A stretch of 31,507 nt of DNA from a virus: the IMG/VR virus record IMGVR_UViG_3300046660_000162, positions 1-31,507 of that record; one strand, 5' to 3'. Positions 2,879 through 26,374 of this stretch are shown here, one piece after another. How positions within the stretch are numbered: position 1 is the stretch's first letter; each line of letters begins with the position of its first letter. The notes below the pieces were generated by a model. It saw nothing but the letters and a program-made list of their open reading frames with translations, was not told the origin of the DNA and did no database searches. The translations under genes and the position numbers were made by a program.

Positions 2879-3598
2879 CTAGAGACCCTTGTCGCCCTTG
2901 CGCTCGATCACGCGACCAACGATGAGGAAGTGGGCGGAATCATCCTCGACGAATTCATCCGGATAGAGTGTCTTGTCCGGGTTGTCCGAAACTATACGAA
3001 TTCGGCCATCGGCCGACCTGAAGAGGCGTTTTACGCGGGCCTCGTCGCCGATAATCACCACGAAGCAGTGATTGCTCGCTAGTCGCGTGTTGCCGGTGTC
3101 TACAGCAATGACATCGCCGTCGTTTATCGTTTTCTCCATGGATTCGCCATGGACCCTCATGAGCTTGACCTTTAACGGGTCAGACCCCTTGGCCCTGAAC
3201 CAGCTCAGCGAGTACCGCTGGCGGTACTGGGTCGGCACGAACTCGGGCACGATGCGCCCAGGACCGCCGCTAACTTCCACCTCCACCCCCTCGACCCATA
3301 CCTCTCGGCTGGGGTCGAAATCTTCATCCGCATCCACGCCCTCAACATCGTAGGCGTGCACCCTTACGACACGATCCCTCGGGGGTTCGCCGTCGTCGCC
3401 AAGCCAATATGCAAGTGGCTTGCCAGTTAGCAGGGATAGGGCAGGAAAATGCTTTCTGTCAATTTTGCCGGTTTTCCTCCATCCGTTCACCGCCTGCGCG
3501 GTAACTCCGCAAGCCCTAGCTACGGTGATGGATTTGATCGGCGGTGGGCCCTGCATAGCAAGGACAAGCCTTCCGGCTAATTCGTTGTCATCAAGCAT
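2879..3598 (-). CDS. CI-like repressor, HTH plus S24 (LexA-type) domain
   Basis: This is the lysogeny repressor. From ATG 3598 (MLDDNELAGRLVLAMQ) it is 239 residues long. An N-terminal helix-turn-helix includes the segment VARACGVTAQAVNGWRKTGK. A C-terminal S24 peptidase-like domain has MRVHGESMEKTINDGDVIAVD, with the catalytic Ser in GESM and the partner Lys in ARVKRLF. Such domains dimerise and self-cleave with RecA in the SOS response. An upstream in-frame ATG at 3682 would add 28 residues, but it would place the operators inside the gene and I think it less likely. The gene ends with TAG, the only clear TAG stop in the window apart from the ambiguous ORF at 15180. Reading it as Gln would add 18 residues up to the TGA at 2825. 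Confidence 0.92.
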   Translation of the reverse strand: MLDDNELAGRLVLAMQGPPPIKSITVARACGVTAQAVNGWRKTGKIDRKHFPALSLLTGKPLAYWLGDDGEPPRDRVVRVHAYDVEGVDADEDFDPSREVWVEGVEVEVSGGPGRIVPEFVPTQYRQRYSLSWFRAKGSDPLKVKLMRVHGESMEKTINDGDVIAVDTGNTRLASNHCFVVIIGDEARVKRLFRSADGRIRIVSDNPDKTLYPDEFVEDDSAHFLIVGRVIERKGDKGL

Positions 3599-3629
3599 TG
3601 CTGGATGGTCGCATCCGTCCTTTTCTAAC

Positions 3630-3672
3630 TCAAGCAAGTGATGCTTGACAGTACTAAAGTGATGCTTTAGTA
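3630..3672. promoter_or_regulatory. Right operators between cI and cro
   Basis: Two inverted repeats lie side by side. TCAAGCA and TGCTTGA (3630-3636 and 3642-3648) are separated by five bases. TACTAAAG and CTTTAGTA (3652-3659 and 3665-3672) are also separated by five bases. Both contain the 11-mer AAGTGATGCTT. The first overlaps the -35 box and the second fills the spacer and -10 box of the rightward promoter, as expected for repressor or Cro binding sites. Confidence 0.75.
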
Positions 3673-3673
3673 T
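3645..3673 (+). promoter_or_regulatory. PR-type promoter for the rightward early operon
   Basis: TTGACA (3645-3650), a 17-base spacer and TAGTAT (3668-3673) make a strong sigma-70-type promoter. The expected transcription start, about seven bases after the -10 box, falls at or next to the ATG at 3681, so the first gene would be translated from a leaderless message. The promoter is covered by both right operators. Confidence 0.8.
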
Positions 3674-3680
3674 CTGCTCC

Positions 3681-3899
3681 ATGGAAGCCCTTCTACGCGC
3701 TATCGAACTTATCGGCTCGCAGGCTGAGTTGGCCCGCCGCCTTGGGGTACGTCCACAGCTTATCAGCCAATGGACGCAGGGTAAGCGGCCACTGCCGCCG
3801 ATTCGTGCTGCGCAAATCGAGGAACTGACGGAAGGCCAGGTCACACGCCTGCAACTCCTTCCGGATTTCCCGTGGGTCACGCCCCGCAATCCCGATTGA
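3681..3899 (+). CDS. Cro-like helix-turn-helix regulator
   Basis: The 72-residue protein is essentially one DNA-binding domain of the Cro/YdaS type. The helix-turn-helix is at residues about 12-32 (SQAELARRLGVRPQLISQWT), followed by KRPLPPIRAAQIEELT. It sits divergently from the CI-like gene and is the first gene under PR, so it should repress cI and its own promoter during lytic growth. There is no ribosome site before ATG 3681 and the predicted transcript starts about there, which suggests leaderless translation. The gene ends in TGA. Confidence 0.85.
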   Translation: MEALLRAIELIGSQAELARRLGVRPQLISQWTQGKRPLPPIRAAQIEELTEGQVTRLQLLPDFPWVTPRNPD

Positions 3900-5188: not shown

Positions 5189-6507
5189 ACGAGACCTTTG
5201 CCCGCGTACCACCGCACTCCATCGACGCCGAGCAGGCCGTGATTGGCGGGCTGATGCTGTCGCCCGAGAAAATCGAGACGGTAGCCGAGCGCTTGACTCA
5301 GGCGGACTTCTACCGTCGCGATCACCAGCTGATCTACCGGGCCATGTTGGAACTGTCCGGTCGTGGTCAGCCATGCGATGCCGTGACACTTGGCGACTGG
5401 ATGGACACGAACGGTTTCGCCGACATGATGGGCGGCTCGTCGTACCTCTACGACCTGGCGAACAACACCCCGTCGTCGGCCAACCTTGCCGCCTATTCTC
5501 AGATCGTCCGCGAGAAGGCCGTACGGCGCTCCCTGATCGATCTGGCTACATCCCTATCAACCGATGCCTACGCGTCCGACAGCGAGGCTCCTGCGCTGCT
5601 TGACGGGGCTATCGCAGGGCTGATGTCGATGCAGAAGGTCGAGTCACGCGCAGAGTTCACTTTGCGGCAGGCGATGACCCTTGCGTATCAGGAAGCCGAG
5701 CGCGCGAAGGCGCTCGGCGGCAAGGTGCCGGGAATCTCTACTGGACTCGCTCGCCTGGACAAGGTTTTGGGCGGATGGCACGACTCGGATCTGGTCATCG
5801 TCGGTGCACGTCCTGCGATGGGCAAGACGGCCCTCCTACTCAACTTCGCCCTGTCCGCTAGCGTGCCGTGCGGAATCATTTCCGCCGAACAGCCCGCCCA
5901 GCAGGTCGCGGCCCGCGTGATGTCCATCGACTCCCACGTTCCCGCCGAGCGGATGCGTAACGGAAGCTTCGACACGGACGACCTCCGGAAGTTGGACTTG
6001 TCCGTGGGGCGTCTGATCGAGCGTACCTGCCTGATCTACGACCGGAGCGCCCCGTCCATCGCCGACGTGTCCCGTATGGCCCGTAAGTGGAAGCAGCAGA
6101 ACGGCATCAAGATCCTTCTTGTCGATTACGTCCAGCGGATCGAAGCCAGTAACGCCGACAAGCGCACGCCGAAGCATGAGCGGGTGGGCGAGGTGGTCCG
6201 TGGCCTGAAGAACCTCGCCCGCGATCTGGACATCCCGGTCGTGGCCTTGGCTCAGGTTGGCCGTCACGTCGATACCCGCGAGGACAAGCAGCCCGGCATG
6301 GGCGACATCTCCGACTCGTCCGAAATCGAGAAAGAGGCGGACCAGATCATCACCCTCTATCGCCCCGGCGTACATGACGACTCGGCGGATCAGGCGGAAG
6401 CCATCCTTAGCGTCGAGAAGAACCGCCACGGCCCAACCGGCGTCGTCCGTGCCGCATGGCTGGCCGAGACGATGCGATTCACGGACATGGCCTATGACAA
6501 CCGATGA
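5185..6507 (+). CDS. dnaB: Replicative DNA helicase, DnaB type
   Basis: From ATG 5185 (overlapping the previous stop) the protein has 440 residues, the normal DnaB length. The N-terminal domain starts RVPPHSIDAEQAVIGGLM, the family's usual opening. The RecA-like domain has the Walker A motif GARPAMGKT (about residues 213-221), the SAEQP segment carrying the catalytic Glu, the Walker B stretch ILLVDYVQRI and the later DSSEIEKEAD region. It unwinds DNA at the phage fork, probably loaded by the upstream initiator. No in-frame TAG is present and the stop is TGA. Confidence 0.95.
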   Translation: MNETFARVPPHSIDAEQAVIGGLMLSPEKIETVAERLTQADFYRRDHQLIYRAMLELSGRGQPCDAVTLGDWMDTNGFADMMGGSSYLYDLANNTPSSANLAAYSQIVREKAVRRSLIDLATSLSTDAYASDSEAPALLDGAIAGLMSMQKVESRAEFTLRQAMTLAYQEAERAKALGGKVPGISTGLARLDKVLGGWHDSDLVIVGARPAMGKTALLLNFALSASVPCGIISAEQPAQQVAARVMSIDSHVPAERMRNGSFDTDDLRKLDLSVGRLIERTCLIYDRSAPSIADVSRMARKWKQQNGIKILLVDYVQRIEASNADKRTPKHERVGEVVRGLKNLARDLDIPVVALAQVGRHVDTREDKQPGMGDISDSSEIEKEADQIITLYRPGVHDDSADQAEAILSVEKNRHGPTGVVRAAWLAETMRFTDMAYDNR

Positions 6508-6766
6508 CGTCCAAGACCTCATCCGGAAACGAATAGCCGCCAGGGAAGTCGAGGCGGCAGAAAACAGGAAGAACTTCACCGCGATGGCGGAAGCGTTGGA
6601 CCTATTCGCCGAATTCAATCCGAAGCCGATCTACGCAGAAGAAAACGGACGAAGCATCGGCAGGAAGCCACAGGACGATCCCAACAGCCTGGACGGCGAC
6701 CGACTAGTTCAGATGCACGACCAGTTTGAACGTACCTCAACCCTGATGAACAAGAGGCGCAAATGA
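6494..6766 (+). CDS. Hypothetical early protein (90 aa)
   Basis: The start is ATG 6494, inside the helicase end; the frame ends in TGA at 6764-6766, overlapping the next ATG. The sequence MTTDDVQDLIRKRIAAREVE continues as a charged helix, then a segment with FAEFNPKPIYAEENGR and a C-terminal basic tail. No family is recognised. Its overlap at both ends indicates translational coupling with the replication genes. Confidence 0.65.
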   Translation: MTTDDVQDLIRKRIAAREVEAAENRKNFTAMAEALDLFAEFNPKPIYAEENGRSIGRKPQDDPNSLDGDRLVQMHDQFERTSTLMNKRRK

Positions 6767-8205: not shown

Positions 8206-8453
8206 CCGTGCTGATCATCGCCGCCCTCGTCGCGGCAGGTATCTACATCCGGCTTGATTTCAAGGTTCGCTACTTCCGCGAGAAGTGCGAGCTGTATCAG
8301 GAACTCTACGAGAACGAACAAGAGGACCGGATCGACTACGAAGTGGAACTTCACCGTACACAGACCCAGCTTGAGGACTCGCGGCAGGCTTACAGCCGAC
8401 TGATCGGCACAAGGGCACAAGGATGGGCAAGCTCGACGGCGACGAGGCACTGA
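8199..8453 (+). CDS. Small membrane-anchored coiled-coil protein (84 aa)
   Basis: ATG 8199 overlaps the preceding stop. The first about 20 residues (MVTVLIIAALVAAGIYIRLD) form one membrane span, followed by a charged helical region rich in Glu and Arg that probably forms a coiled coil. It ends in TGA inside the next gene. No family is recognised. It looks spanin-like in outline but lies among early genes, far from the lysis region, so I leave the role open. Confidence 0.6.
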   Translation: MVTVLIIAALVAAGIYIRLDFKVRYFREKCELYQELYENEQEDRIDYEVELHRTQTQLEDSRQAYSRLIGTRAQGWASSTATRH

Positions 8454-9147: not shown

Positions 9148-9437
9148 ACTGGTTCCGCAAGAAGACCAGTCAGGCGGATGGAATCGCTCCTGACGCCAAG
9201 GGCCTTGGCATAGTCGTCAAGTTTGAGGACGGCCTGTACGGAGTCCGGATGGAGCACGAAGGGGGAACCTACTTCCTTGATGTGAAATCTCCGGCTATCC
9301 CTAATTACTGGTATCCAACAAACACCGGTGACGCATGGGTAAGGCTTGGACGCGGGGTGGCTAAGCATGTGCAGTGGGCGATAAATGCATCCATTAAGGA
9401 GCGGTCTCAGCTTGCCGACAAGGGAACCCCAGTATGA
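9144..9437 (+). CDS. Hypothetical protein (97 aa)
   Basis: It starts at GTG 9144 (MNWFRKKTSQADG) with a GAAGGAGG ribosome site upstream and overlap with the previous stop. The middle part (GIVVKFEDGLYGVRMEHEGG) looks like a small beta-sheet domain. It ends with TGA overlapping the next ATG. No function is recognised. Confidence 0.6.
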   Translation: MNWFRKKTSQADGIAPDAKGLGIVVKFEDGLYGVRMEHEGGTYFLDVKSPAIPNYWYPTNTGDAWVRLGRGVAKHVQWAINASIKERSQLADKGTPV

Positions 9438-9925
9438 CCACCCACGACATCATTGGCCGCGATACGGACGAGGCATTCGCGATGCCGGAACTCTCGGATG
9501 CGTGCATTGACGCGGCGAACCGGACGGCGAAGTTGTTTGATGCCCATTACCCCGGCTGGCAGTTGTATAGCCGCGTGGTCCGTGGCGACACCGTCTACGA
9601 CCGCCAGCTAGCTGCGTGGGCCATCGGCATGGCTAGGCAGCACACACGTACCCGGAAGACGAACGGGCAGGCTGTGGTGGCTCCTAGGGGGCGTCGGAAC
9701 GACTGGATTGCGCAGGCTGGGGTTGCCGCCCTGGAGTTCGTTATTTGTGGACGCTACGGCGAGTTTGCCCGAGAGGTTGAGCGTCGGCTTGGCGTCCATC
9801 ACGCAACGTACCTGAAAGTCCGTGGCGAGCTGGCCGTGATGATGGCAGAGGGGCTGAAAAACTACGTAGTGGAGTTGTACTACCAGTTCCATCACGTCCT
9901 GCGCGAAACACGCAATGCCGCGTGA
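9434..9925 (+). CDS. Candidate late-gene regulator at the Q position (163 aa)
   Basis: This is the last gene of the early operon, directly before the gene-free region and the late genes, the place where lambdoid phages keep the antiterminator Q. The C-terminal half (WIAQAGVAALEFVICGRYGE, then RLGVHHATYLKVRGELA) has a helix-turn-helix-like look similar to Q-type or other late regulators. I see no zinc-binding cysteine cluster and cannot confirm the family by sequence. The regulatory role is inferred from position. It has no in-frame TAG and ends in TGA. Confidence 0.5.
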   Translation: MTTHDIIGRDTDEAFAMPELSDACIDAANRTAKLFDAHYPGWQLYSRVVRGDTVYDRQLAAWAIGMARQHTRTRKTNGQAVVAPRGRRNDWIAQAGVAALEFVICGRYGEFAREVERRLGVHHATYLKVRGELAVMMAEGLKNYVVELYYQFHHVLRETRNAA

Positions 9926-9954
9926 ACTAATTTTGTGGTGACTGTGACCATCAA

Positions 9955-10630
9955 ATTTCCCCATGGTCAAATCCATGGGAGGGCGGATTACACGCCTGAG
10001 ATTCCCGGATAGCCTCTGCCGGCCAGGTCATCGACCTGCTGCCTCGGCATAGCCAGAAAGATCCGGGATGCCTGCGCAATGCAGGGGCCTCGTCTGGCGG
10101 GACGACCCGGATCACGGTCACCGGGACTGACATTTACGTCAAGACCCACGGCAAATCGCCGGAATCTTGTCGGATAGATCAAGTTACGCGGCATCAGGTC
10201 TCCGTACGGTGTGCTTGATGGATTGGGAGTTCCCGGTCGTGCCGCACCAATTTCAGGCCATCCCCATCGGGCTGGGTAATGGGTTCGGTCCCGAGGTACG
10301 CCAAGGGTTAAAGGTAGCCGATTAAACAGCCGGTGGCGGCCAGCCTGGATTCATTTCAACCCATCCGGTCTCGGTCGGATGGCCGGGCGAAAGCCCGACT
10401 TGCACAGAGTGTCGAAATTCCATCGTTTTCGGGGCGAGTTCGACAATCGGTTATCAGTTATGCCGGTAGAGGCGTACAGCCCGCGTTGCCCGATTCAACG
10501 CACCGGCACCTTGTCAGCAGTAGGGAACGACGCTCCGCTACTGCACCGCACCCACCGGTAGCCCAATCCACAGGGCGTGGGGAAGCGGCTCCTAGTGAGC
10601 GTGCTGGGAACGCCGGACGCAACCGGCATT
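9955..10630 (+). ncRNA. Large structured non-coding RNA, about 0.7 kb
   Basis: No convincing gene or ribosome-site-led frame covers this stretch, but perfect stems follow one another. They include 9960-9966 with 9973-9979; 10060-10067 with 10106-10113, enclosing hairpins 10071-10085 and 10090-10105; 10361-10367 with 10376-10382; and 10384-10388 with 10393-10397, closed by a GAAA tetraloop. Others are 10410-10416 with 10439-10445; 10461-10467 with 10502-10508, enclosing 10483-10488 with 10496-10501; 10517-10523 with 10538-10544; and 10612-10616 with 10623-10627. The GNRA loop exists only in the plus-strand RNA, which sets the direction. Size and context resemble the large phage RNAs of the GOLLD/ROOL type, but I cannot assign a class. 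Confidence 0.75.
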
Positions 10631-10655
10631 AATTCACTGCCTTTCGGGAGGCCAC

Positions 10656-11105
10656 ATGATTCGTGCGACATTCAAGCCTGGCGAGGTTATCCCGGTAGAT
10701 GGACCGCATTACAGCCATCCGCAGCCAGTCCGAAGGTTTGAGACGGGAGCCACCCGCGATACGGATGCCGGGAAGGTCGACTACGACGGATTTCTCAGCC
10801 CGTATGCCCTGAAGGCATTCGGCGAGTACATGGATCGGCATCGCCACCAGGCTGATGGCAAGGTCCGCGACTCAGATAATTGGCAGCGAGGGATCCCCCT
10901 CGACGCCTACATGAAGTCCATGTGGCGTCACTTCTTCGATGTATGGTCCGAGCACCGTGGGGTTTCGACCCCGGCGGGGCTCAAGGAAAACCTCTGCGCC
11001 CTGAAGTTCAACGTGGACGGGATGCTTCACGAGCTGGTTAAGGCCGAGTACGACCACACGCCGGGGGCTGGGTATCCCATGCCGCTCGCCGATCCGGAGG
11101 ACTGA
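10656..11105 (+). CDS. dATP/dGTP diphosphohydrolase-type domain protein (DUF5664)
   Basis: ATG 10656 has a GGGAGG ribosome site. After about 30 residues the protein reads FETGATRDTDAGKVDYDGFL, then a segment with DNWQRGIPLDAYMKSMWRH and a following helix with LCALKFNVDGMLHELVK. This pattern is the DUF5664 family, annotated as the N-terminal domain of dATP/dGTP diphosphohydrolase and common in phages. It would act on nucleotide pools. No PurZ-like partner is visible here. The 149-residue length is normal for the stand-alone form. Confidence 0.8.
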   Translation: MIRATFKPGEVIPVDGPHYSHPQPVRRFETGATRDTDAGKVDYDGFLSPYALKAFGEYMDRHRHQADGKVRDSDNWQRGIPLDAYMKSMWRHFFDVWSEHRGVSTPAGLKENLCALKFNVDGMLHELVKAEYDHTPGAGYPMPLADPED

Positions 11106-11106
11106 T

Positions 11107-11181
11107 ATGGCTATCTTCGCCCTTGGTGTCCTCGTCGGCGTTGTGATTGGCATCTGCCTAGAGACGGGTGGATCGCTATGA
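11107..11181 (+). CDS. Tiny membrane protein (24 aa)
   Basis: One base after the previous stop, ATG 11107 with a GGAGG ribosome site opens a 24-codon frame beginning MAIFALGVLVGVVIGICLE, almost entirely one membrane span. Its TGA overlaps the ATG of the phosphoesterase gene. The good ribosome site and exact overlap argue that it is translated, either for its own sake or to couple translation of the next gene. Confidence 0.55.
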   Translation: MAIFALGVLVGVVIGICLETGGSL

Positions 11182-12002
11182 AGCCGCGTCGCCACCTCAT
11201 CCTGCCTGACACGCAGGTCAAGCCAGGAGCGCCAACCGATCATCTTGAATGGGTCGGCCGTGCGATTCAGGACTACAAGCCGGACGTGGTTGTCCATCTC
11301 GGCGACCACTGGGACTTCGAAAGCCTGTCCTCGTGGAGTTCGCCAGGGTCAATCGACCTTGAGGGTCTTCGGTATCAGGACGATCTGGATGCCGGTAACG
11401 AGGCCCTTATTCGTCTTCACGACGCCATGGCTGGGTACAAGGGTCGGAAGGTCATTCTTCGCGGGAACCACGAATGGAGGCTTGAGCGTGCTATCTCGGC
11501 CAGCCCTAAGTGGGCCGGTGCGGTTGGATCGCACCAGTTCGTGGACCGAAAGCTGGGATGGGAAGTAATCGATTATGTACATGGATCCCCCGGCGCAATA
11601 GTGATTGATGGCGTGACCTACGCCCATTACTTCGCAAATCCGAACACGGGCAAGCCGATCAGCGGAACGGTAAGCAATCGGTTAGCCAAGATCGGTACTA
11701 CATTCGTCCAGGGTCACGTCCAGGGCCTCCTACAGGGCTCCGTACAGTACGCCACAGGCCAGATGCGACACGGTATCGTCGCTGGTAGCTGCTACCTCCA
11801 CGACGAACCCTACAAGGGCATGGCCAACTCGCACTGGCGAGGGATCGTGGTGTTGAACGAGGTTCGCGACGGGACATTCTGTGAAATGCCCCTGACCCTC
11901 GACTACCTGTGCCGCAAGTACGAGAACCGTTCGTTGGCCTCGTATCTGAAGCGCCAGTACAAGAATGCCGAGAGCAGGTTTTCCCTGGCACGCGTGGCCT
12001 AA
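11178..12002 (+). CDS. Calcineurin-like metallophosphoesterase
   Basis: The 274-residue protein carries the metallophosphoesterase motif series: LILPDTQVKPG near the N-terminus, VVVHLGDHWDFES (GDxxD type) around residue 40, ILRGNHEWRLERA (GNHE) around residue 95, then two later His-containing segments (VTYAHYF and VQGHVQG). These residues bind two metal ions in the family. Phage members are often annotated as phosphoesterase or exonuclease-like; the substrate cannot be read from sequence. It ends in TAA, closing this block before the promoter-like region at 12003-12167. Confidence 0.85.
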   Translation: MKPRRHLILPDTQVKPGAPTDHLEWVGRAIQDYKPDVVVHLGDHWDFESLSSWSSPGSIDLEGLRYQDDLDAGNEALIRLHDAMAGYKGRKVILRGNHEWRLERAISASPKWAGAVGSHQFVDRKLGWEVIDYVHGSPGAIVIDGVTYAHYFANPNTGKPISGTVSNRLAKIGTTFVQGHVQGLLQGSVQYATGQMRHGIVAGSCYLHDEPYKGMANSHWRGIVVLNEVRDGTFCEMPLTLDYLCRKYENRSLASYLKRQYKNAESRFSLARVA

Positions 12003-12167: not shown

Positions 12168-12602
12168 ATCACCACCATTGCCGTTAGTCATGGAGTTGTA
12201 GCGGCTGACAGTCAGGCCACGGGTAGTTTCAAGTTCCCATGGGGCGAGAAGATCCGGGTAGTCAAGAATGGCCCTTGGTCTGGATGGGTGTTCTGCGCAG
12301 CAGGTCGCCTCGATTACGTCCATGTGGCGTTCGCTCAGGTCGAGTCGGGCGAGTTCTCCCCGATATGTGGTTCAGATGACCCGGATGGCGGGTGTTACCT
12401 ACTGGTCGGCAAGTCCAAGGTTTTCTGCCTGGAAGCGGACAAGATGATTCCGTACAAGGTGAGCAAGACCTTCGCCATTGGCTCGGGATGCAAGTTCGCT
12501 ATGGCCGCTATGGCCTGCGGTAAGACTCCGGCTGAGGCCGTGAAGATTGCCGCGAAGCTCGATCCGAGCACCGGTGGGGCAGTGCGCTCCATCGTCGTAT
12601 AA
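12168..12602 (+). CDS. Proteasome-beta/HslV-like Ntn-hydrolase protein, apparent ATC start
   Basis: The sequence opens TTIAVSHGVVAADSQAT after codon ATC at 12168, where relatives begin MTTIAV. It continues with KIRVVKNGPW and, near the end, FAIGSGCKFAMAAMACGKT and AAKLDPSTGG. This is the pattern of phage proteins of the proteasome-beta/HslV type, where the exposed N-terminal Thr would be the nucleophile. No ATG, GTG or TTG lies in frame at the right place; GAGG at 12155-12158 could serve ATC at 12168. ATG to ATC mutation is the alternative. It has no in-frame TAG and ends in TAA. It may process virion or host proteins. Confidence 0.7.
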   Translation: MTTIAVSHGVVAADSQATGSFKFPWGEKIRVVKNGPWSGWVFCAAGRLDYVHVAFAQVESGEFSPICGSDDPDGGCYLLVGKSKVFCLEADKMIPYKVSKTFAIGSGCKFAMAAMACGKTPAEAVKIAAKLDPSTGGAVRSIVV

Positions 12603-12618
12603 CCAACAGGAGGCATCC

Positions 12619-12828
12619 ATGATGCTTTGGCAAGATCACATCGCGGATGCAGCAAAAGTGGCCCCAACAGTAGCGTACGTCGGCACAACCGTAGCGGGGG
12701 TGCAATGGGGAACCTTGGCATAGATCCTCGCCTGCGTGTATTCCGGCTTGATGATCGTCGATTTCCTTTGGCGCAAGTGGGCAAGGCCCCTGCTGGAGCG
12801 TAAGAGTGTCATTTCGCCCAAGTCCTAA
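12619..12828 (+). CDS. Holin-like membrane protein with one in-frame TAG
   Basis: ATG 12619 has an ideal AGGAGG ribosome site. Read with TAG (12721-12723, codon 35) as Gln, the frame gives 69 residues ending in TAA. There are two hydrophobic stretches (about residues 15-36 and 36-53), then a basic C-terminus (RKWARPLLERK), as in small class II holins. It is directly followed by, and overlaps, the endolysin gene. It would make holes in the inner membrane to time lysis. With TAG as stop only a 34-residue fragment lacking the second span could be made. Confidence 0.8.
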
Positions 12829-13282
12829 AGTAGTCGGTGGCTTCCTGGCGGCAGTTGTCGCCGCAGCCGCAGCCTTTACCCAACCTTGGGAAGGCACGGT
12901 CTACGAAGGCTACTCGGACGTTGTAGGGGTTACGACCGCCTGCACTGGCCATACGGGGCCCGAGGTGGTGCTGGGGAGGCACTACGACAACTACCAGTGC
13001 AACCTCTGGTTCCAACATGATATTGCGATTGCAGCTTAGGGCGTCCTGTCCTGCGTACCAGCGGAACGGCTGACGGTTAACCAGGCTGCGAGCTTTACAA
13101 GCACCACGTTCAACATCGGAGTTACCGCCTTCTGCGGATCCACGATGGCCCGCAAGGCGAACGAAGGTGATCGAGCCGGATCCTGTAAGGCCCTTCTTAT
13201 GTGGGTTTATGCAGGCGGCCGGAAGATTCAGGGATTGGTCAACAGGCGCAATGCCGAGTACCGGCTGTGTATGACGCCATGA
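12806..13282 (+). CDS. Endolysin, GH24 lysozyme with signal-anchor-like N-terminus, one in-frame TAG
   Basis: Start GTG 12806 lies inside the holin gene. Residues about 9-24 (VVGGFLAAVVAAAAAF) are a weakly hydrophobic signal-anchor segment. The lysozyme catalytic triad pattern follows: Glu in PWEGTVYEGY, Asp in YSDVVGV and Thr in TTACTGHTG. The C-terminal half (RLTVNQAASFTSTTFNIG, then ARKANEGDRAGSC and WVYAGGRKIQGLVNRR) is typical of P21-type lysozymes. TAG 13037-13039 (codon 78) falls between these halves, so the standard code would yield an inactive fragment. With Gln the product has 158 residues and ends in TGA, the family length. Confidence 0.9.
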
Positions 13283-13470
13283 GTGGCTTTCTTCAGTCAC
13301 GTTTCTAGCTGGCCTGTGCAGCCTTCCTTACGGCGCTTGGCCTGCTCATATTCAACAAGATCGACTCGGCCTAGTGGGCAAGCATGACCACATGGGTCTT
13401 GGGTCTCTACTTCTCCGCTCAGGTGGCGGAGACCGCAGTAACCAAGAAGCCGCCGGACACTCCGGTTTGA
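13279..13470 (+). CDS. Small two-span membrane protein, possible second holin, two in-frame TAGs
   Basis: The ATG overlaps the endolysin stop. With TAG at 13306-13308 and 13372-13374 read as Gln, the frame yields 63 residues and ends in TGA. There are hydrophobic segments at about residues 11-25 and 36-50 and a short basic tail. A second small membrane protein after the endolysin is common in lysis cassettes as holin or antiholin. It starts MSGFLQSRF and would otherwise stop after nine residues. The role is inferred from topology and position. Confidence 0.65.
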
Positions 13471-13479
13471 GGCAGTAAC

Positions 13480-14127
13480 ATGAAAATTCGCGCCCTGCTT
13501 GCCCTTGTCCTCATTGCGACTACGGCGGGGTGTGTCAAACACTCCGTACTGGCCGGAGCCCATGCCACCGCCCTACGCCTGGAGATGGCGGGTAACGGTG
13601 TTTGTAGTGGCACAGCCGTGGGGCCGCACTTAGTCCTTACCGCAACGCACTGCTTCGGTGAGGGTCCATTGGTTAGCCCTGCCGAAACGACGCCACTGGT
13701 GTCTATCGATGGCAAGCCGGTGGCAGAGGTGAAACGGATCAACGACGGGTAGGACCACAGCCTGGTGGTTGTGGATGCCACGTTCGAATCCTACGCGACC
13801 ATTGCAGCACCGCCTAAGCAGGGTGACCACGTTTTCATCTTCGGCAACGCCCTTGGGTGGCATGATCTGTATAGAGAAGGCTACATGGTGGGCGTGTATC
13901 ACGACACTGGGCGCGTCCTGACGGTGTTCGATATGAACTCGTATTTCGGCGACTCCGGGTCGGGACTTTTCAACAGCGAAGGTTAGGTGGTTGGAGTGTT
14001 ATCCGCTGGCTTCTATGCGGATTTGGGTGGCGGCGGCATCAAGCTGATGGCCACGCTGCCTATTCAGTTCACACCTGCTCAGTATCGCGAGGTGGGGTAT
14101 GTCCCATTGGGCGCAGGTTTACAGTAA
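13480..14127 (+). CDS. Trypsin-like (S1) serine protease lipoprotein, two in-frame TAGs
   Basis: The N-terminus (MKIRALLALVLIATTAGC) is a lipoprotein signal with Cys 18. The mature part has the chymotrypsin-fold triad: His in VLTATHCFG, Asp in DHSLVVVDA and Ser in GDSGSGLF. TAG at 13750-13752 (codon 91) lies one residue before the catalytic Asp, and TAG at 13984-13986 (codon 169) follows the Ser motif. With both read as Gln, the product is 215 residues and ends in TAA. A membrane-anchored periplasmic protease in the lysis region might help break the envelope or act in superinfection control. It overlaps the next small gene. Confidence 0.8.
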
Positions 14128-14203
14128 TTGGTTCCCGGTAGGCATGGCCGCGTTCTGCCTTGTGCTGATTATCCGAATGTACTTCGGCCGCGGCGATGAT
14201 TGA
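14099..14203 (+). CDS. Small single-span membrane protein (34 aa)
   Basis: ATG 14099 lies inside the protease gene end with a GAGGTGG ribosome site; the stop TGA overlaps the next ATG region. The protein begins MSHWAQVYSNWFPVGMAAF and has one span (about residues 12-26) with a basic tail. It may be a holin-type or accessory lysis protein. No family is recognised. Confidence 0.55.
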   Translation: MSHWAQVYSNWFPVGMAAFCLVLIIRMYFGRGDD

Positions 14204-14393
14204 CCCGAGAGATTGGCTAAACGAACGATTGTCTTGGGCCTACATCCAGGCCAGTGGCAAGGCCACCCACACGAACACATGCAGCACGAGCGTGGCACCG
14301 GCTAGACAGCCCGGCCCCTGTGACTGCGAGGCAGAAGACCGGGCAGAGAGTAATCGGAAATGGTTCGACCTTGGGCCTGGAGCTTCGCAATGA
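14196..14393 (+). CDS. Small hypothetical protein (65 aa)
   Basis: ATG 14196 overlaps the end of the preceding small gene, and the TGA overlaps the ATG of the spanin gene. It begins MIDPRDWLNERLSWAYIQAS and has three cysteines in the middle part (HTNTCSTS and GPCDCEAED), perhaps a metal site. Similar small proteins lie next to spanins in some phages, but I cannot name a function. Confidence 0.55.
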   Translation: MIDPRDWLNERLSWAYIQASGKATHTNTCSTSVAPARQPGPCDCEAEDRAESNRKWFDLGPGASQ

Positions 14394-14647
14394 GATACGT
14401 CTACATCGCCCTAGGCGTCGTCCTCCTGTGGAGCGCCAGTCTGCTATGGGCACATCACGAGGGATCGACCAGCGAGCGACAGGCGCAGGCTCAGAAGACG
14501 GAAAAGGTCGTAGCGAAGAACCACAAGAAGCGAAAGAAGGTTGAGGAAACCGTAGATGCGCTACCACCCGCCCCGACCATCCCTGTGCATGACGTTCCTC
14601 CTGATTCTGCCGCTGGCAGGTTGCGCGACAACTGGAGCCGGGATTAA
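14390..14647 (+). CDS. i-spanin (Rz-like)
   Basis: The 85-residue protein has an N-terminal membrane anchor (about residues 3-20, YVYIALGVVLLWSASLLW), a charged periplasmic helix rich in Lys, Gln and Glu, and a C-terminal segment ending DSAAGRLRDNWSRD that is typical of Rz-type subunits. An o-spanin lipoprotein is encoded in another frame starting inside it. Together the pair bridges the periplasm and fuses inner and outer membranes after the endolysin has cut the wall. Confidence 0.85.
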   Translation: MRYVYIALGVVLLWSASLLWAHHEGSTSERQAQAQKTEKVVAKNHKKRKKVEETVDALPPAPTIPVHDVPPDSAAGRLRDNWSRD

Positions 14648-14789
14648 CGGCTGCGACTGGGCGAAACCGATCTACGTGTCACAAGACGACGTGCTGACTG
14701 ACGGCACGGCCAAACAAATCCTGACCCATGACGAGACTGGCAAAGCCATCTGCGGATGGGGCAAATACAAACCCGAGGAATCCGAATGA
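14556..14789 (+). CDS. o-spanin lipoprotein (Rz1-like), overlapping Rz out of frame
   Basis: The frame starts at ATG 14556 (or ATG 14589, directly before the hydrophobic core) within the Rz gene. The signal MTFLLILPLAGC has the lipobox LAGC, so the mature protein starts at Cys and is anchored in the outer membrane. The 77-residue length with an extended C-terminal part (ending KYKPEESE) is longer than classical Rz1. The overlapping out-of-frame arrangement is the hallmark of lambdoid spanin pairs. Confidence 0.85.
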   Translation: MRYHPPRPSLCMTFLLILPLAGCATTGAGINGCDWAKPIYVSQDDVLTDGTAKQILTHDETGKAICGWGKYKPEESE

Positions 14790-15013
14790 CCGACGAAACC
14801 GTACAGCCCGAAGTGATCGCTCCGGTGGTCAATCCCATTGCCACCGTCGAGACTGCTCCCGAAGCACCGACGCAGGAGGTTGCTGAGGCTGTCGCCGATG
14901 TGGCCGACGAATCGTTCTTCCAGCGTGTCGAGAAGGCCGTAGAGGAACTGGGCGCGTCTGCTCATAACCTCGTGGACTGGCTTCGCCAGGAAATTGCCAA
15001 GGTGCGTAGCTGA
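14786..15013 (+). CDS. Acidic hypothetical protein (75 aa)
   Basis: ATG 14786 overlaps the previous stop. The first about 45 residues are rich in Ala, Pro, Glu and Val (PEVIAPVVNPIATVETAPEA), and the rest is a probable amphipathic helix (FFQRVEKAVEELGASAHNLV). It ends in TGA within a TGATG overlap. No family is recognised. Confidence 0.6.
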   Translation: MTDETVQPEVIAPVVNPIATVETAPEAPTQEVAEAVADVADESFFQRVEKAVEELGASAHNLVDWLRQEIAKVRS

Positions 15014-15183
15014 TGACCGGCATTCCCGCATGGATTCATAACGACAGCGTCGTCATCACCCGGACCATGAACGGCTTCGCCATCGTCGAGACTCCCACGT
15101 CTCCGGTGTCTCAGTCCGTGAGCTTCGAGACCTGGGACGCGCTGGCCTATTACCTCAACGCGAATTTCTCCCCGAGCGTATGA
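15013..15183 (+). CDS. Small hypothetical protein (56 aa)
   Basis: It starts at ATG 15013, overlapping the previous stop, and ends with TGA overlapping the next ATG. The sequence MTGIPAWIHNDSVVITRTMN, with a later FETWDALAYYL segment, looks like a compact small domain. The function is unknown. It lies between the lysis genes and the tRNA. Confidence 0.55.
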   Translation: MTGIPAWIHNDSVVITRTMNGFAIVETPTSPVSQSVSFETWDALAYYLNANFSPSV

Positions 15184-15269
15184 GCGGCAAGGGCGATGAC
15201 CGTCGTCCTCTGAGCGTGGATGAGCAGACGTTCTCGGATAACTGGGATCGAGTGTTTGCGGCTAAGTAG
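15180..15269 (+). CDS. Small MSGKGD-type protein ending at TAG, with possible read-through across the tRNA gene
   Basis: ATG 15180 opens the frame MSGKGDDRRPLSVDEQTFS and reaches TAG at 15267-15269 after 29 residues. The opening is typical of very small phage proteins. If TAG is read as Gln the same frame has no stop through the whole tRNA gene. It passes a second TAG at 15504-15506 and ends only at TGA 15591-15593, giving 137 residues. The part encoded by the tRNA is unlikely to be a real domain. I therefore give the short form, but which TAG reading applies is open. Confidence 0.45.
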   Translation: MSGKGDDRRPLSVDEQTFSDNWDRVFAAK

Positions 15270-15330
15270 GATTACTACGCAAGTGTCCGAGAGAAGAACT
15301 ACGTGGATAGCTTGCGGCTGGAAGGTTTAG

Positions 15331-15405
15331 TGGGGCGTAGCTCAACGGTAGAGCCAGAATCTCTAAAGTTCTCGGATGTCCGTTCGAATCGGACCGCCCC
15401 CGCCA
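15331..15405 (+). tRNA. Amber-suppressor tRNA, anticodon CUA, tRNA-Gln-like, CCA encoded
   Basis: A full cloverleaf of 75 bases can be drawn. The acceptor is TGGGGCG with CGCCCCC; positions 2-7 pair and the first pair is a T-C mismatch. The D stem is GCTC/GAGC. The anticodon stem AGAAT/GTTCT encloses the loop CTCTAAA, giving anticodon CTA. The variable region has five bases, the T arm is GTCCG/CGGAC with loop TTCGAAT, then G73 and an encoded CCA. U1 with a weak first pair, G2-C71, G3-C70, A37 and G73 are known glutamine identity elements in bacteria. The tRNA should read UAG, probably charged with Gln by host GlnRS. Confidence 0.95.
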
Positions 15406-15420
15406 CACACGAGGTAACAC

Positions 15421-15522
15421 ATGGAAATGCTAGTGAACCGTCACACGAACCTGTGGCGCAAGCCGCTGCCTCGTCCAGCACGGACCGGGAAGACGGCGAA
15501 GGATAGGGCAAGATCTCGTTGA
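15421..15522 (+). CDS. Small basic hypothetical protein (33 aa)
   Basis: ATG 15421, with a GAGG ribosome site, opens a frame beginning MEMLVNRHTNLWRKPLPRPA and rich in Arg and Lys; it ends in TGA at 15520-15522. It starts 15 bases after the tRNA. The basic composition might suit nucleic-acid binding, but the short length leaves the call uncertain. Confidence 0.4.
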   Translation: MEMLVNRHTNLWRKPLPRPARTGKTAKDRARSR

Positions 15523-15593
15523 TCTACTGGGATCCGGTGAGCAAGCGTGAGGTTAGCCACGATTGGTGGCCCAACATTGAGGAACCGAAATGA
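15519..15593 (+). CDS. Small hypothetical protein, TTG start (24 aa)
   Basis: TTG 15519 overlaps the stop of the previous small gene (TTGA), and the TGA stop overlaps the next ATG. The peptide begins MIYWDPVSKREVSHDWWPNI. The tight overlap at both ends and the well-composed sequence favour translation. It is also the end of the long read-through frame starting at 15180, so it could be just the tail of that frame. Confidence 0.4.
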   Translation: MIYWDPVSKREVSHDWWPNIEEPK

Positions 15594-15790
15594 GTCAGCT
15601 TCCATCGCACCACCAGATCAATGACCGCGTTTCTCTCAAGTTCGGCGAAGGCTATGTTGGTGCTCAAGTCGTCGGCGTTTTCTTCACCGAGGCCAAGGTT
15701 CTGTACACCGTCGTGACCGATCAGGATATCCAACTCGAAAACGTCGACTCTGCCGTAGTGTGCGATCCGGCCAGTGGCGAGACGGACTGA
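15590..15790 (+). CDS. Small conserved phage protein of unknown function (66 aa)
   Basis: The ATG at 15590 overlaps the preceding TGA. The protein has a hydrophilic N-terminus, then INDRVSLKFGEGYVGAQVVG and VFFTEAKVLYTVVTDQDIQ, a small beta-barrel-like (SH3-type) pattern seen in many phage proteins near late genes. The stop is TGA. No enzymatic motif is visible. Confidence 0.65.
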   Translation: MSQLPSHHQINDRVSLKFGEGYVGAQVVGVFFTEAKVLYTVVTDQDIQLENVDSAVVCDPASGETD

Positions 15791-15912
15791 GCAACGTTCG
15801 CTGTTCACGAATCGCGAACACGAATAGATTCCGAACACATGAAACGGCTCTAGGATTGGCCTGGAGCTGAAGTTTTGAATAGATTTTCCTGAACTGAGAA
15901 CAACGAAGATCA
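15791..15912. other. Short intergenic region with inverted repeat before terminase
   Basis: This 122-base gap holds GTTCGC (15796-15801) and GCGAAC (15814-15819) as an inverted repeat, and CGAACAC occurs twice. A 17-codon frame with a TAG lies at about 15840-15893 but has no support. The region may hold a promoter or processing site for the packaging and head genes; nothing decisive is visible. Confidence 0.3.
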
Positions 15913-16203
15913 ATGGCTTTCGAGAAGGGACAATCAGGCAATCCAGGCGGACGTCCTAAGCTTCTTGCTGAGGTGTAGGACGCTGCCCGCGAGCACACGC
16001 TGACTGCATTGGATGTCCTGATCTCCATTGCCACGGACGCCGAGAAGCCGCCTGCGGCTCGTGTGAAGGCCGCTGAGACGTTACTTGATCGTGGATGGGG
16101 TAAGCCCCGTCAGTCGGTGGAGGTATCGGGTGACGCGGACCAGCCACTGGTTACTCGTGTCGAACTCATTTCCATGGTGACGAGTGGCAACGGCCCAGGT
16201 TGA
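15913..16203 (+). CDS. Probable small terminase subunit, one in-frame TAG
   Basis: The 96-residue product begins MAFEKGQSGNPGGRPKLLAE; the GQSGNPGGRPK motif is typical of DUF5681-type proteins found at the small-terminase position. A helical part (REHTLTALDVLISIATDAEK) and a segment ending in TLLDRGWGKPRQSVE follow. TAG at 15976-15978 (codon 22) read as Gln joins the motif to the rest. It directly precedes and overlaps the large terminase gene, so it most likely recognises phage DNA for packaging. It ends in TGA. Confidence 0.75.
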
Positions 16204-17494
16204 ACTACCCCAGAAGCTGATCCCGATCTTTTAGGGTGAGGCTGACGTGCGTGGTAGCCATGGTGGCCGAGGCTCGGGCAAGACCCGAAGCTTTGCGGTG
16301 ATGACCGCCGTACGTGGCTATATGTTCGCCAGGTCGGGCGTAAGCGGGATTATCCTGTGCGCCCGCCAGTTCATGAACTCGCTGTCTGACTCGTCCATGG
16401 AGGAAGTGAAGCGGGCCATCGAGGACAACCCTTGGCTTAACGACTTCTACGACATCAGCGAGAAGTAGATTAAGTCGAAAGATGGGCGGATCAGCTACGC
16501 CTTCGCTGGCCTGGATCGCAACATCGGCAGCGTGAAGTCTAAGGGGCGTGTGCTGCTGTGCTGGGTGGACGAGGCTGAGCCGGTCACTGACCAGGCACTG
16601 TCTACCCTCATGCCGACGCTGCGAGAGGAAGGCGACGACTGGAATGCCGAGCTTTGGGTGACGTGGAACCGGGCCCGCAAGACCGCAGCCGTTGAGCGGT
16701 ATGCCAATGCCATCGACCCTCGAATTAAGGTCGTGCAACTGAACTGGCGGGATAACCCCAAGTTCCCCGCCAAGCTGGAACGAGACCGTCAGCGTGACAT
16801 GGTGGACAGGCCGGACCAGTACGACCACATCTGGGAGGGCGACTTCCTTGGTGTCGTAGAGGGCGCCTACTTCGCCACAGGGCTGACGAGGGCAAAGGCT
16901 GAGGGTCGTATAGGTAAACTTGCAGCCGACCCGCTGATGACGATACGCGCCTATTGGGACATCGGCGGGACAGGTGCCAAGGCTGATGCCTGCGCTATCT
17001 GGATCGTCCAGTTCATCGGCAAAGAGATTCGCGTCCTCGATTACTACGAGGCGGTAGGCCAGGAGTTGTCGGTACATATCGACTGGCTCCGGTCGAAGAA
17101 GTACGAGAAGGCCGAGTGTGTGCTGCCCCACGACGGGGCGAACAACGATAAGGTCTTCCGGGTTAGCTACCAGAGCGCCCTACGCGATGCCGGATTCAAT
17201 GTCAGGGTCATCCCGAACATGGGCGCTGGTGCTGCTATGACCCGAGTGGAGAACGTCCGCCGCATCCTGCCGTCCTGCTGGTTCAACGAGGACAGCACCG
17301 AAGGTGGCCGCGATGCCCTCGGCTGGTATCACGAGAAGCGCGACGAGAACCGGGGCATTGGCCTTGGCCCTGCTCACGACTGGGCAAGTCACGGTGCCGA
17401 TGCCTTTGGCCTGATGGCCGTTGACCACGCTACCCACGTATCGTCCTCCGAATGGAGTTCGAAACTCACCTACAAAAAAATGGGCAACGCTTGA
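16184..17494 (+). CDS. Terminase large subunit, two in-frame TAGs
   Basis: With GTG 16184 as start and two TAGs read as Gln (16232-16234, codon 17; 16466-16468, codon 95), the product is 436 residues, a normal TerL length. Walker A is GGRGSGKT (about residues 27-34), Walker B is VLLCWVDEAE, and the C-terminal nuclease domain has aspartates in RAYWDIGGTGAKADACAI and in HDWASHGADAFG. It pumps DNA into the capsid and cuts it. Under the standard code the Walker A part would be severed from the Walker B and nuclease parts. It ends in TGA, overlapping the portal start. Confidence 0.95.
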
Positions 17495-19743
17495 AAACTG
17501 ACCCGTACGACGAAATCCTAGGTGACACGGACGACGAGGCCACTGGCGAAATGTCGGACGGCGAGCTGTGCGGCATCATCGACCGTGAGCGGACCAACGG
17601 CATCGGCTTCAATGACCAGATGTAGTCTGACCGCGAGCGTGCGATGTCCTACTACCAGGGCGAGGCCGTGGGGGAACTTGCCCCGCCTGAGGTAGAGGGG
17701 CGTAGCCGGGTCGTGTCCAAGGAGCTGATGGACGTCGTTGAGTGGACGATGCCTGGACTCATGGAAATGTTCGCCTCCACCGATGACGTGGTGGCCTTTG
17801 AGCCATCCGGTCCAGCCGAGGAAAAGAACTGCAAGGACGCCACGCGATATTGCGGCTACGTCCTGCACCGTAAGAACCCCGGGTTCACCATTCTGCACGA
17901 CGCCATCAAGTCGGCCCTGATCACCCGCATGGGCGTGGTCAAGGCGTACTGTGACCGCTCGTGGGATGTGCGCGAGTAGAAGCTGACCAACCAGTCGGAC
18001 ATGGACCTTGAGGCGATCAAGGGTGACGACTCGATGGAAGTCGTCACAGTGGCCGCTATCCAGCCCGTGGAGGGAGTCCCACCTGTCGAGGTAGCACCGG
18101 GCCAGTTCCAACCCGCGCCGGTCACCTATGACGTTACAGTGCGTGTCAAGGAGCGCAAGGACAAGTTCGTCGTGTGTGGCGTGCCACCCGAGGAAATCAC
18201 CATCTCCAAGGACTCGCGGGACATCGAGAAGGTCCGCTACATCGGCCACGACGTGGAGCGCACCAAGTCCGACCTGTTGAGCCTTGGCTACCCCAAGGAC
18301 AAGGTCGAGGCCCTGTACGACGACAAGAGGGCCAATGCATCGTCGGAAGCCTCGGTACGCGGTGACTACGATGGCGTGAACAACTACGACGACGATCCGG
18401 CTGACAAGAGCCAGAAGAAGGTCACCCTCACGGAAGCTTACCTTCTGGTCGATTACGACAAGGACGGTATTGCCGAGTACCGCCGCATCGTCAAGGCCGG
18501 CATGGTCGTCTTCGAAAACGAGATTGTCTAGGACCACCCGTTCGCCCTGTTCACCCCGATCCTGATGCCATACAAGCTGGTGGGTATGTCGTTCTACGAC
18601 CTCGTAGAAGACCTCCAGCGGATCATGACGGCGATCAACCGGCAGATGTTGGACAACTTCTATCTGTCCAATACGCCGCGCACCGAGATTGTCGAAGGCC
18701 AGGTGAATCTGGACGACTTCCTCAACCCGGTTCCGGGTGGTGCCGTCCGCGTCAAAGCTCCGAACATGATGCGTGAGATTCAGGTGCCGTCCATTGCCGC
18801 CCAGGCGATGCAGGGCATCGAATACTTCAAGAACGTCCGCGATGGCCGTACAGGCGTCAAGGAATTCAGCCAGGGACTCGTCGGCAACGAACTGAGCAAG
18901 TCGCAGATCGGTTCCGAGGGCGTCAGTCAGCTCATGGACCAGGCCGCGACCCGCCAGAAGCTCCTGGCCCGCGTGTTCGCTGAGACCGGCATCAAGCGCT
19001 TGTATCGCCTCATCCTCAAGATGGTCACGCAGTATCAGGACCGCGAGGAACAGGTGAAGGTCAACGGTGCCTGGATGGCCGTCGATCCACGCGAATGGGC
19101 CAACAACTACGATATGGTCGTGTCGGTGGGTATCGGCACGCAGTCCAAGCAGGTACAGGTGGCGCAGGCCATGCAGCTGTTGCAGATCCAGCAGGCAGCG
19201 GCACAGGCGTCCCCGGGGCTGGTCACGCCGACCAACGCGTTCAACACCCTGGAAGACCTGACAAGCACGCTGGGCAAATCGGATGTCAGCCGGTACTTCA
19301 CCGCCCCCGATCCGAATGCACCGACCGCACAGGCTCCCGACCCGAACGCGCACAAGATGGCCGAGATTCAGGCGAATGCGCAGATCAAGCAGGCCGAAAT
19401 GCAGCAGCAGGGCCAGTTGCAGTAGCAGAAGCAGCAGGGCGACATTGCTGTGGAGCAGATGAAGCAGCAGTTCCAGGCCCAGCAGGCCCAGCAGGAGACT
19501 CAGCTTGAGGCCGAGCGCAACACTCAGCAGATGCAGAACGAGATGACCCTTGCCCAGTTCAAGGCTGAGAAGGACGCCGAGCTGGCCAAATTCAAGGCAG
19601 AACTGGATGCCAACACAGAGATTCTTAAGGCCCGCATTCAGGCTGAGGCACAGATCGCCGCAGCGGAACTTCGTGCGCAGGCTGATGAGAGGCTTGCTAC
19701 CCAGCAAATCCAGTATCAGCAGTCACACGAGGGCCAGGTATGA
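17491..19743 (+). CDS. Portal protein, P22-like, four in-frame TAGs
   Basis: The frame begins at TTG 17491, overlapping the terminase stop (TTGA), and reads 750 residues to TGA. Four TAGs (17623, 17977, 18529 and 19423; codons 45, 163, 347 and 645) must be decoded. The sequence has the marks of the P22-like portal family: RSRVVSKELMDVVEWTMPGL near the start, DLVEDLQRIMTAINRQMLDN in the middle and a long Gln/Ala/Glu-rich helical C-terminus. The fourth TAG sits in a Gln tract (GQLQ-TAG-QKQQ), which favours Gln as the inserted residue. The portal ring is the DNA gate of the capsid. Confidence 0.93.
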
Positions 19744-20012
19744 CGCCTGAGAAGGAGGTCCAGCGAGGCCACTAGGCGCAAGCCATCCTTGACGACCCTC
19801 TGTACATCGAGGCATTCGAAACCGTACGCGCGGAGATTGAACACCAGTGGCGAAACTCACCGGCAAGAGACGCGGAAGGCCGCGAAAAGTTGTGGCTGTC
19901 AAGCAAGATTCTGGATCGACTGGAGCAGCACCTGAAGTCCGTGATGGACAGCGGAAAGATGGCGAAGGCCACGCTGGCCCAGCGAATTGGAAGGAGTGCC
20001 TCGGGCTTCTGA
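19740..20012 (+). CDS. Conserved head-region protein of unknown function (90 aa), one in-frame TAG
   Basis: ATG 19740 overlaps the portal stop. The sequence MTPEKEVQRGH-TAG-AQAIL (TAG 19773-19775, codon 12) continues with DDPLYIEAFETVRAEIEHQW and SPARDAEGREKLWLSSKILD. The latter is a familiar pattern of small helical phage proteins between portal and scaffold. The role is unknown. It ends in TGA, overlapping a possible CTG start of the next frame. Confidence 0.75.
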
Positions 20013-20167
20013 CGAAGATCGAGGCCAAGTACAAGCCCCGGTCGCTGACCTGTGTGCAGATCCCATGCGACGGTCCTGACTACTTCATCGGTATCTACGG
20101 CTCCGCACCTGTCGTGCGTGGCACATTCAAGGTCCGGCTGAGCGATGGCCGTACCGTCACTAAGTAA
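20009..20167 (+). CDS. Small hypothetical protein, CTG or upstream GTG start
   Basis: The C-terminal part (SLTCVQIPCDGPDYFIGIYG, then GTFKVRLSDGRTVTK) looks like a real small beta-rich domain and ends in TAA. I favour CTG 20009 as start because AAGGAG lies upstream and it overlaps the previous stop (CTGA), giving 52 residues. GTG 19847 would give 106 residues but would share 166 bases with the preceding gene in another frame. The start is uncertain. Confidence 0.5.
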   Translation: MTKIEAKYKPRSLTCVQIPCDGPDYFIGIYGSAPVVRGTFKVRLSDGRTVTK

Positions 20168-20181
20168 CTGAGGATCCACCC

Positions 20182-21204: not shown

Positions 21205-21221
21205 CCTCTTAGGAACCAGAA

Positions 21222-22220: not shown

Positions 22221-22238
22221 TCCGGTTAACGTAGCAAC

Positions 22239-22262
22239 GGGGAGGGGCTTCGGCCTCTCCCC
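22239..22262 (+). other. Strong hairpin with TTCG tetraloop after the capsid gene
   Basis: GGGGAGGGGC (22239-22248) pairs with GCCTCTCCCC (22253-22262), with one G-T pair, around the loop TTCG closed by C-G, an extra-stable tetraloop. No T-run follows, so it is not a classical terminator. It probably stabilises or limits the capsid message relative to downstream genes. Confidence 0.75.
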
Positions 22263-22278
22263 ACTTACGGAGAGACAC

Positions 22279-24933: not shown

Positions 24934-24936
24934 TAC

Positions 24937-25374: not shown

Positions 25375-25375
25375 G

Positions 25376-26365: not shown

Positions 26366-26374
26366 GGGCACACC

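Follow-up and report, generated by a model that had tools for sequence, protein, structure and literature searches.

In phage lambda, the 6S/pR' late leader is an untranslated RNA of about 194 nt with a terminator at its end, located directly 3' of the Q gene and transcribed from the Q-controlled late promoter. AlpA and Q proteins are described as binding an element in the late promoter, after which the polymerase passes downstream terminators (PMC9371919). Large structured RNAs have also been described from phages: GOLLD, which occurs in phages and prophages near tRNAs and is raised during lysis, is reported to have conserved 5' and 3' regions that flank a variable linker, sometimes with phage tRNAs within it, and ROOL, a large phage RNA often found near tRNA islands, has a solved example of 659 nt (PMC12286853). 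Theta (HDV-like) ribozymes are described as structured RNAs beside tRNAs in TAG-recoded phages, a group in which the same source calls the trigger of the genetic-code switch poorly understood (PMC10879173). We here describe a locus that invites comparison with each of these systems.

A structured region between early and late genes

The window analysed here is the whole of IMG/VR virus record IMGVR_UViG_3300046660_000162 (31.5 kb; 31,507 nt), which has a lambda-like gene order and apparently belongs to a temperate, TAG-recoded phage. In addition to a CI-like repressor gene, it carries plus-strand early and middle genes for an O-like replication protein, DnaB helicase, a NinB-like protein and an HNH nuclease, then P0001, and beyond the metallophosphoesterase gene lie those for an HslV-like protein, endolysin, terminase, portal and head proteins. 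Between P0001 and the next ORF are 730 nt, positions 9926-10655 (Table 1), for which the original prediction proposed a multibranched RNA of no known class, set beside the late region and explained by no gene. The region is more stable than expected from its composition (z -3.0, with none of 20 dinucleotide shuffles equally stable), compared with z -1.97 for the opposite strand. A protein-coding reading was rejected because no frame is conserved: the module A alignment has gaps mostly of 1-2 nt, and runs free of TAA and TGA occupy different frames in different phages, so that no open frame is shared. This absence of a coding frame and the covariation described below were the two outcomes on which the prediction had been staked.

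The proposal that the RNA belongs to no known class also held in our searches. With cmscan at the gathering score, the window and the loci of the nine other phages that carry the RNA matched only ordinary tRNAs in Rfam. At relaxed E values (up to 3-5), four copies (window 9900-10700, L098, L099 and L103) gave no match to GOLLD, to ROOL or to the HDV-type families; relaxed matches to Guanidine-II, mir-370, CRISPR-DR20, H19_2 and rydB lay far below the cut-offs and were set aside as chance. A literature search, mostly at the level of titles and abstracts, turned up no description of the RNA. Overall, we regard it as almost certain that this is a genuine structured phage RNA absent from Rfam release 15.

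Table 1. Positions in the window of the RNA, its parts and neighbouring features.
Feature	Position	Strand	Basis or remark
CI-like repressor	2879-3889	-	
P0001, 163 aa, upstream neighbour in 10/10 phages	9434-9925	+	probable Q/AlpA-type antiterminator
Candidate late promoter: GTGACC (9944-9949), 17 nt, TCAAAT (9967-9972), 6 nt to module A	9944-9978	+	putative
Module A, conserved 5' structured core, six helical blocks, 43 pairs	9979-10128	+	alignment, consensus fold, covariance model
Helix 1, loop GATTACA	9981-9985/9993-9997	+	nearly invariant
Helix 2, closes multi-helix arm; TCCCGGA/TCCGGGA	10003-10009/10062-10068	+	covaries
Helix 3, arm within helix 2	10014-10029/10033-10056	+	double changes in 5/16 pairs
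Helix 4, loop GCAAN	10071-10085	+	double changes in 4/5 pairs
Helix 5, conserved TGG in loop region	10090-10105	+	double changes in 5/6 pairs
Helix 6	10106-10110/10121-10125	+	double changes in 3/5 pairs; 100% of cells paired
Variable linker	10129-10460	+	differs from phage to phage
Linker element, acceptor-like ends GCGGCAT/GTGCCGC, then ACCA	10188-10249	+	by sequence
Linker hairpin CGGGC-GAAA-GCCCG	10384-10397	+	loop not conserved
Module B, conserved 3' element	10461-10508	+	conservation and pairing
Hairpin GCCTTTCGGGAGGC over presumed ribosome-binding site of next gene	10639-10652	+	
Unknown protein, first ORF 3' of region	10656-11105		ATG at 10656
Metallophosphoesterase	11178-12002		
tRNA, anticodon CTA (amber-reading), late region	15331-15405	+	Rfam and ARAGORN; sole tRNA found in window

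Two conserved modules and a variable linker

The RNA is present in ten phage records, the window and nine others (L098-L106, named G001-G009) that were gathered via neighbour proteins and conserved DNA stretches. We aligned module A of the window with its nine counterparts using MAFFT (alignment A4) and derived a consensus fold with RNAalifold, in which 18 of the 43 pairs show at least one compensatory change; the region thus does have a covarying, multibranched fold. Read on nine distinct rows (not ten), which are related to one another so that the shuffles are no significance test, 93.7% of module A cells are paired compared with 79.8 ± 1.3% in shuffles, 47 cells are doubly changed (16.6 ± 2.9 in shuffles) and the covariation score is 0.382 (0.148 in shuffles), values each reached by none of 500 shuffles. 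When the 3' partners were slid by 1-3 columns, 31-43% of cells were paired and 7-10 were doubly changed. These slid controls, together with the spread of changes over the helices, are stronger evidence for module A than the shuffles.

Most of the signal lies in helices 4, 5 and 6, where 12 of 16 pairs have double changes, while helix 1 hardly varies and is therefore outside the reach of covariation. Helix 2 takes the form CCCGCC with GGCGGG in L104 and L105, which are one base out of register in A4 at this helix, so that helix 2 loses pairs in the count. Among paired cells of module A, G-U greatly exceeds A-C (36 versus 5), which places the RNA on the plus strand. Kissing between module A loops was considered and dropped as not consistent by eye.

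Two details of the predicted structure are not conserved. An 8-bp helix between 10060-10067 and 10106-10113 can be drawn with the letters of the window, but all eight pairs form in no other phage (pair by pair, 2, 5, 4, 8, 9, 10, 6 and 8 of the ten phages are able to pair), and its strands are used instead by the covarying helices 2 and 6. The predicted GAAA tetraloop is likewise present in the linker hairpin of the window, but the corresponding sequence is TGCAAAT-like in the three aligned phages L102, L103 and L106.

Module B consists of a 7-bp outer stem (TGCCGGT/ACCGGCA) that encloses two inner hairpins, GGC-GTACA-GCC and GCGTTG-CCCGATT-CAACGC. Its cells are 96.1% paired compared with 89.1% in shuffles, and nine are doubly changed (3.2 in shuffles and 0-4 in slid controls). 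Three of its pairs show a double change, a number matched by 76 of 500 shuffles, and module B therefore rests on one covarying hairpin together with its conservation. Further downstream, a sequence similar to the GCCTTTCGGGAGGC hairpin precedes the next gene in other phages, as judged by eye.

The distance from the start of module A to the start of module B is 194 nt in L101, 195 in L100, 482 in the window and 934 in L099. The 730 nt of the window are accordingly one long version of the RNA, L100 and L101 are almost without a linker, and the conserved core is about 200-250 nt. Several linkers hold tRNAs or sequences resembling them: ARAGORN calls a tRNA-Ser(TGA) in L099, and the relaxed Rfam search gives sub-threshold tRNA matches in the linkers of L099 (25.5 bits) and L103 (24.8 bits), with a further weak match of 23.1 bits in the L103 record. 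By eye, L102 and L106 contain tRNA-Gly-like stretches, accompanied by weak tRNA matches of 22 bits, and L098 a tRNA-Ala-like stretch that is absent from the relaxed Rfam results. In the window copy (9900-10700), Rfam at E values up to 5 gave no tRNA-like match, and the acceptor-like element of the linker was not recognised; this element encloses a hairpin, GATTGGG-AGTT-CCCGGTC, that is also found in L098, L099, L100 and L104.

Inspection by eye also revealed an HNH-like ORF between the tRNA-Ser and module B of L099 (approximately 6310-6735), after which the sequence of the tRNA-Ser 3' end, CTCCTTAACCTTCCGC, recurs as if a cassette had been inserted there. The outgroup phage L143, which lacks module A, has a stretch resembling tRNA-Gly(TCC) at the corresponding place, 3' of its P0001-like gene and before its late genes (approximately 6560-6690); it was seen by eye and is not called by ARAGORN.

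Occurrence among phages and association with TAG recoding

The covariance model finds exactly one copy of module A in each of the ten records. As predicted for the window, the RNA lies between early and late genes in all ten carriers, and it is always 3' of P0001, with intervening sequence of a few hundred bases in L099, L100, L101, L102 and L103. In L100, L101 and L102, approximately 450-500 nt separate P0001 from module A and contain an apparent frame with a TAG in it, which by eye looks like a GIY-YIG-type nuclease gene.

Searches of cultured phages gave no DNA match to the region and no tblastn match for P0001 or its outgroup homologue, and no copy of the RNA was found in the bacterial genomes searched. 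The only pattern match in a bacterial genome, L109, was rejected as chance: it spans about 30 of 167 profile positions at an E value of 0.2 and by eye seems to fall inside coding sequence. Covariance model R1 was also run on three more sets of 56, 34 and 47 loci, where its only convincing matches were L003 and L013, which are already members of the carrier set. The best other scores were E 0.27 for L173 in the second set and, in the third, E 0.057 for L249 with L224 and L247 both at E 0.11; the loci of this third set had been chosen for a 15-base stretch of module A. Five outgroup phages (L025, L043, L143, L145 and L146) encode a P0001-like protein with 20-31% identity to P0001 and have no module A. 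By eye, their HslV-, holin- or lysozyme-like late genes follow soon after the P0001-like gene, from which they are separated by a leader of approximately 100-200 nt or by one or two small ORFs. Set against these loci without module A, the large RNA gives the impression of a late leader that one phage group has elaborated.

In the window, in-frame TAG codons are found in none of ten early and middle genes and in all nine late genes examined, 28 in total (12288-31456). This restriction to late genes, together with the CTA tRNA, indicates that the late genes appear to read TAG as sense, and we assume that it is read as glutamine. All ten carriers of the RNA possess a CTA tRNA and nine of them have an in-frame TAG in the terminase gene. 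Two terminase lineages combine the RNA with recoding, one with the window and G003 and the other with the remaining eight carriers at 32-33% identity. In two sets of 80 terminase relatives, 39 and 28 loci extend 6.5 kb or more upstream. Of these 67 loci, eight have an in-frame TAG in the terminase gene and all eight carry the RNA. Two of the other 59 stand apart: L141 combines the RNA with a CTA tRNA but has no terminase TAG, and L146 possesses a CTA tRNA without the RNA. RNA, in-frame terminase TAG and CTA tRNA are all missing from the remaining 57. We scored a locus as recoded on either of two grounds, an in-frame terminase TAG or the joint presence of module A and a CTA tRNA; the latter matters only for L141. 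If the CTA tRNA is taken as the rule instead, the RNA is present in nine of ten, with L146 as the exception. Left out of these counts because their loci stop short of the region were L011 and L012 (in-frame TAG), L150-L152 (CTA tRNA) and L193 (one TAG). L146, which carries its CTA tRNA at 8225-8298 and a P0001-like gene without a terminase TAG or module A, is possibly an intermediate state of recoding.

These counts bear on a reading in which the RNA itself times or supports late translation of TAG as sense, for example by holding tRNAs or by imposing a delay until the amber tRNA accumulates. It would account for the CTA tRNA in every carrier, for the presence of the RNA in 8/8 loci with a terminase TAG and in 0/57 with neither TAG nor CTA tRNA, for its recurrence in two terminase lineages and for the strictly late position of the in-frame TAGs. 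Nonetheless, the RNA and recoding may be two marks of a single lineage, with an early cassette passed on by descent or recombination, so that the counts are not independent, and L146 combines a CTA tRNA and a P0001-like gene with no module A. To our knowledge, no such RNA is known from other recoded phages, such as the crAss-like phages. Shared descent of the early cassette accounts for the link between RNA and recoding as well as function does, and we consider a direct role in the code switch quite improbable.

P0001, late transcription and the role of the RNA

In the searches made, P0001 had no protein-family match and no sequence homology to known regulators. A first structural model (pLDDT 60), for which cyclin and Orc6 rows had Z scores as high as or higher than those of lambda Q and AlpA, was replaced by an AlphaFold2 model built with five distant homologues added from the outgroups (pLDDT 82.8). 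The first Foldseek match of this model is the antiterminator AlpA (E 0.23), and the top three of 994 chains in VIA-align are AlpA, twice, and lambda Q, at Z scores of 7.2, 7.1 and 6.9 followed by 6.1 for the next, unrelated chain; over P0001 residues 10-157, 125, 125 and 139 residues are aligned at an rmsd of 3.5. Z scores of 6.9-7.2 in a helical protein may reflect a common arrangement. P0001 also lies directly upstream of the late operon, which is the place of Q in a lambda-like gene order, and the modelled fold and gene position together suggest that it is probably a Q-type antiterminator. With a probable Q-type gene upstream, the RNA most likely falls within the leader of the late transcript; fold and gene order thus make a Q-type regulator with late-leader transcription a likely arrangement, and we think that the RNA is probably part of that leader.

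The candidate late promoter between P0001 and module A is weak: a consensus promoter scan with a threshold of 9 of 12 reported no sigma-70-type promoter, the candidate at 9944-9972 included. An inverted repeat, TGACCAT/ATGGTCA (9945-9969), surrounds its spacer and is a possible protein-binding site. In L104 and L105, the hexamer GGGACG, given as the AlpA binding element in PMC9371919, lies 14 to 9 nt before module A, although the two sequences are nearly identical and a single match of six bases may be fortuitous.

The RNA lies directly where the late transcript is predicted to begin, and it accompanies P0001 in ten of ten phages, which raises the possibility of a role confined to cis. Module A, folding while it is being transcribed, would then modify the polymerase or gate the late genes, perhaps with P0001 as partner, and the RNA would be an element for antitermination or for control of the late leader. 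The put RNA of HK022, an RNA antitermination element, is a model for such a role. The 42 nt upstream of module A fall into the same five groups as the helix-turn-helix region of P0001 ({window, L098, L099}, {L100, L101, L102}, {L104, L105}, L103 and L106), whereas module A groups otherwise, L098 with L100 and L099 with L103 and L106. P0001 and the upstream DNA adjoin, so linkage alone could give the same groups, and in Mantel tests the upstream 42 nt are not significantly correlated with the helix-turn-helix region (r 0.16, p 0.12), whereas the helix-turn-helix region and module A are (r 0.46, p 0.023). Moreover, module B, which starts 194-934 nt past the start of module A, would be needless for a 5' cis element. 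A role purely in cis therefore seems unlikely to us. It is far less probable that this stretch, set between the early and the late genes, is in the main a hotspot for insertions or a tRNA island in decay, with structure left by dead tRNAs. The tRNA-Ser, the tRNA-Gly-like and acceptor-like pieces with ACCA ends, the variation of the linker and, by eye, the HNH-like ORF of L099 all fit such an origin. By contrast, module A is not tRNA-like by Rfam and its helices are kept by compensatory change, unlike decaying DNA; the tRNA-island explanation thus fails for module A and, to a large extent, for module B as well, and it remains for the linker only.

With low confidence, we prefer a stable and separately acting RNA to a leader that works purely in cis or to direct involvement in the code switch. 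In such a scheme, P0001, as a Q-type antiterminator, would act on a promoter just 5' of 9979, and the polymerase would transcribe module A, the linker with its frequent tRNAs or tRNA-like sequences, module B and then the late genes in which TAG is sense. Once folded, the modules would form a stable RNA that builds up late in the lytic cycle and acts as a molecule of its own, as proposed for GOLLD and ROOL, and host tRNA-processing enzymes could free it from the long transcript at the tRNA-like segments. Release by tRNA processing followed by action in trans is conjecture, and we hold it doubtful. The window copy has no tRNA-like match, so release by this route would need the element at 10188-10249, and since L100 and L101 are almost without a linker, tRNA cargo cannot be essential. 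Taken as a whole, the reading of a structured RNA outside Rfam that is a late-transcript leader and also stable and separately acting has, in our judgment, an even chance of being correct. A further idea, that the two modules clamp a tRNA-bearing linker and that one RNA thereby couples the start of late transcription to the change in the meaning of TAG, strikes us as a long shot.

Compact at its core and always accompanied by a probable regulator, the RNA described here has a defined location where the late genes begin; its ten carriers all possess an amber tRNA, and the relatives with a standard code that were examined all lack it. These features make both the roles of late-leader RNAs and the trigger of the code switch in recoded phages testable. 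Among the described systems, theta ribozymes are found at tRNA 3' ends; our RNA was compared with these through the HDV-type Rfam families, which it does not match. Unlike the late leader of lambda, it extends over 0.3-1 kb with a conserved multibranched structure, and our scan reported no terminator-like site inside it. The original prediction had likened it to GOLLD and ROOL, a likeness that holds for setting and layout and fails for Rfam matches and for size, the core of about 200-250 nt standing against 600-800 nt. It differs from ROOL in that its modules are separable by a linker of almost none to hundreds of bases, and from GOLLD, which exceeds 800 nt, in its much shorter conserved part. 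In several phages its conserved 5' and 3' parts flank a variable linker with a tRNA or tRNA-like sequence inside, a layout shared with GOLLD that we take as resemblance rather than homology.
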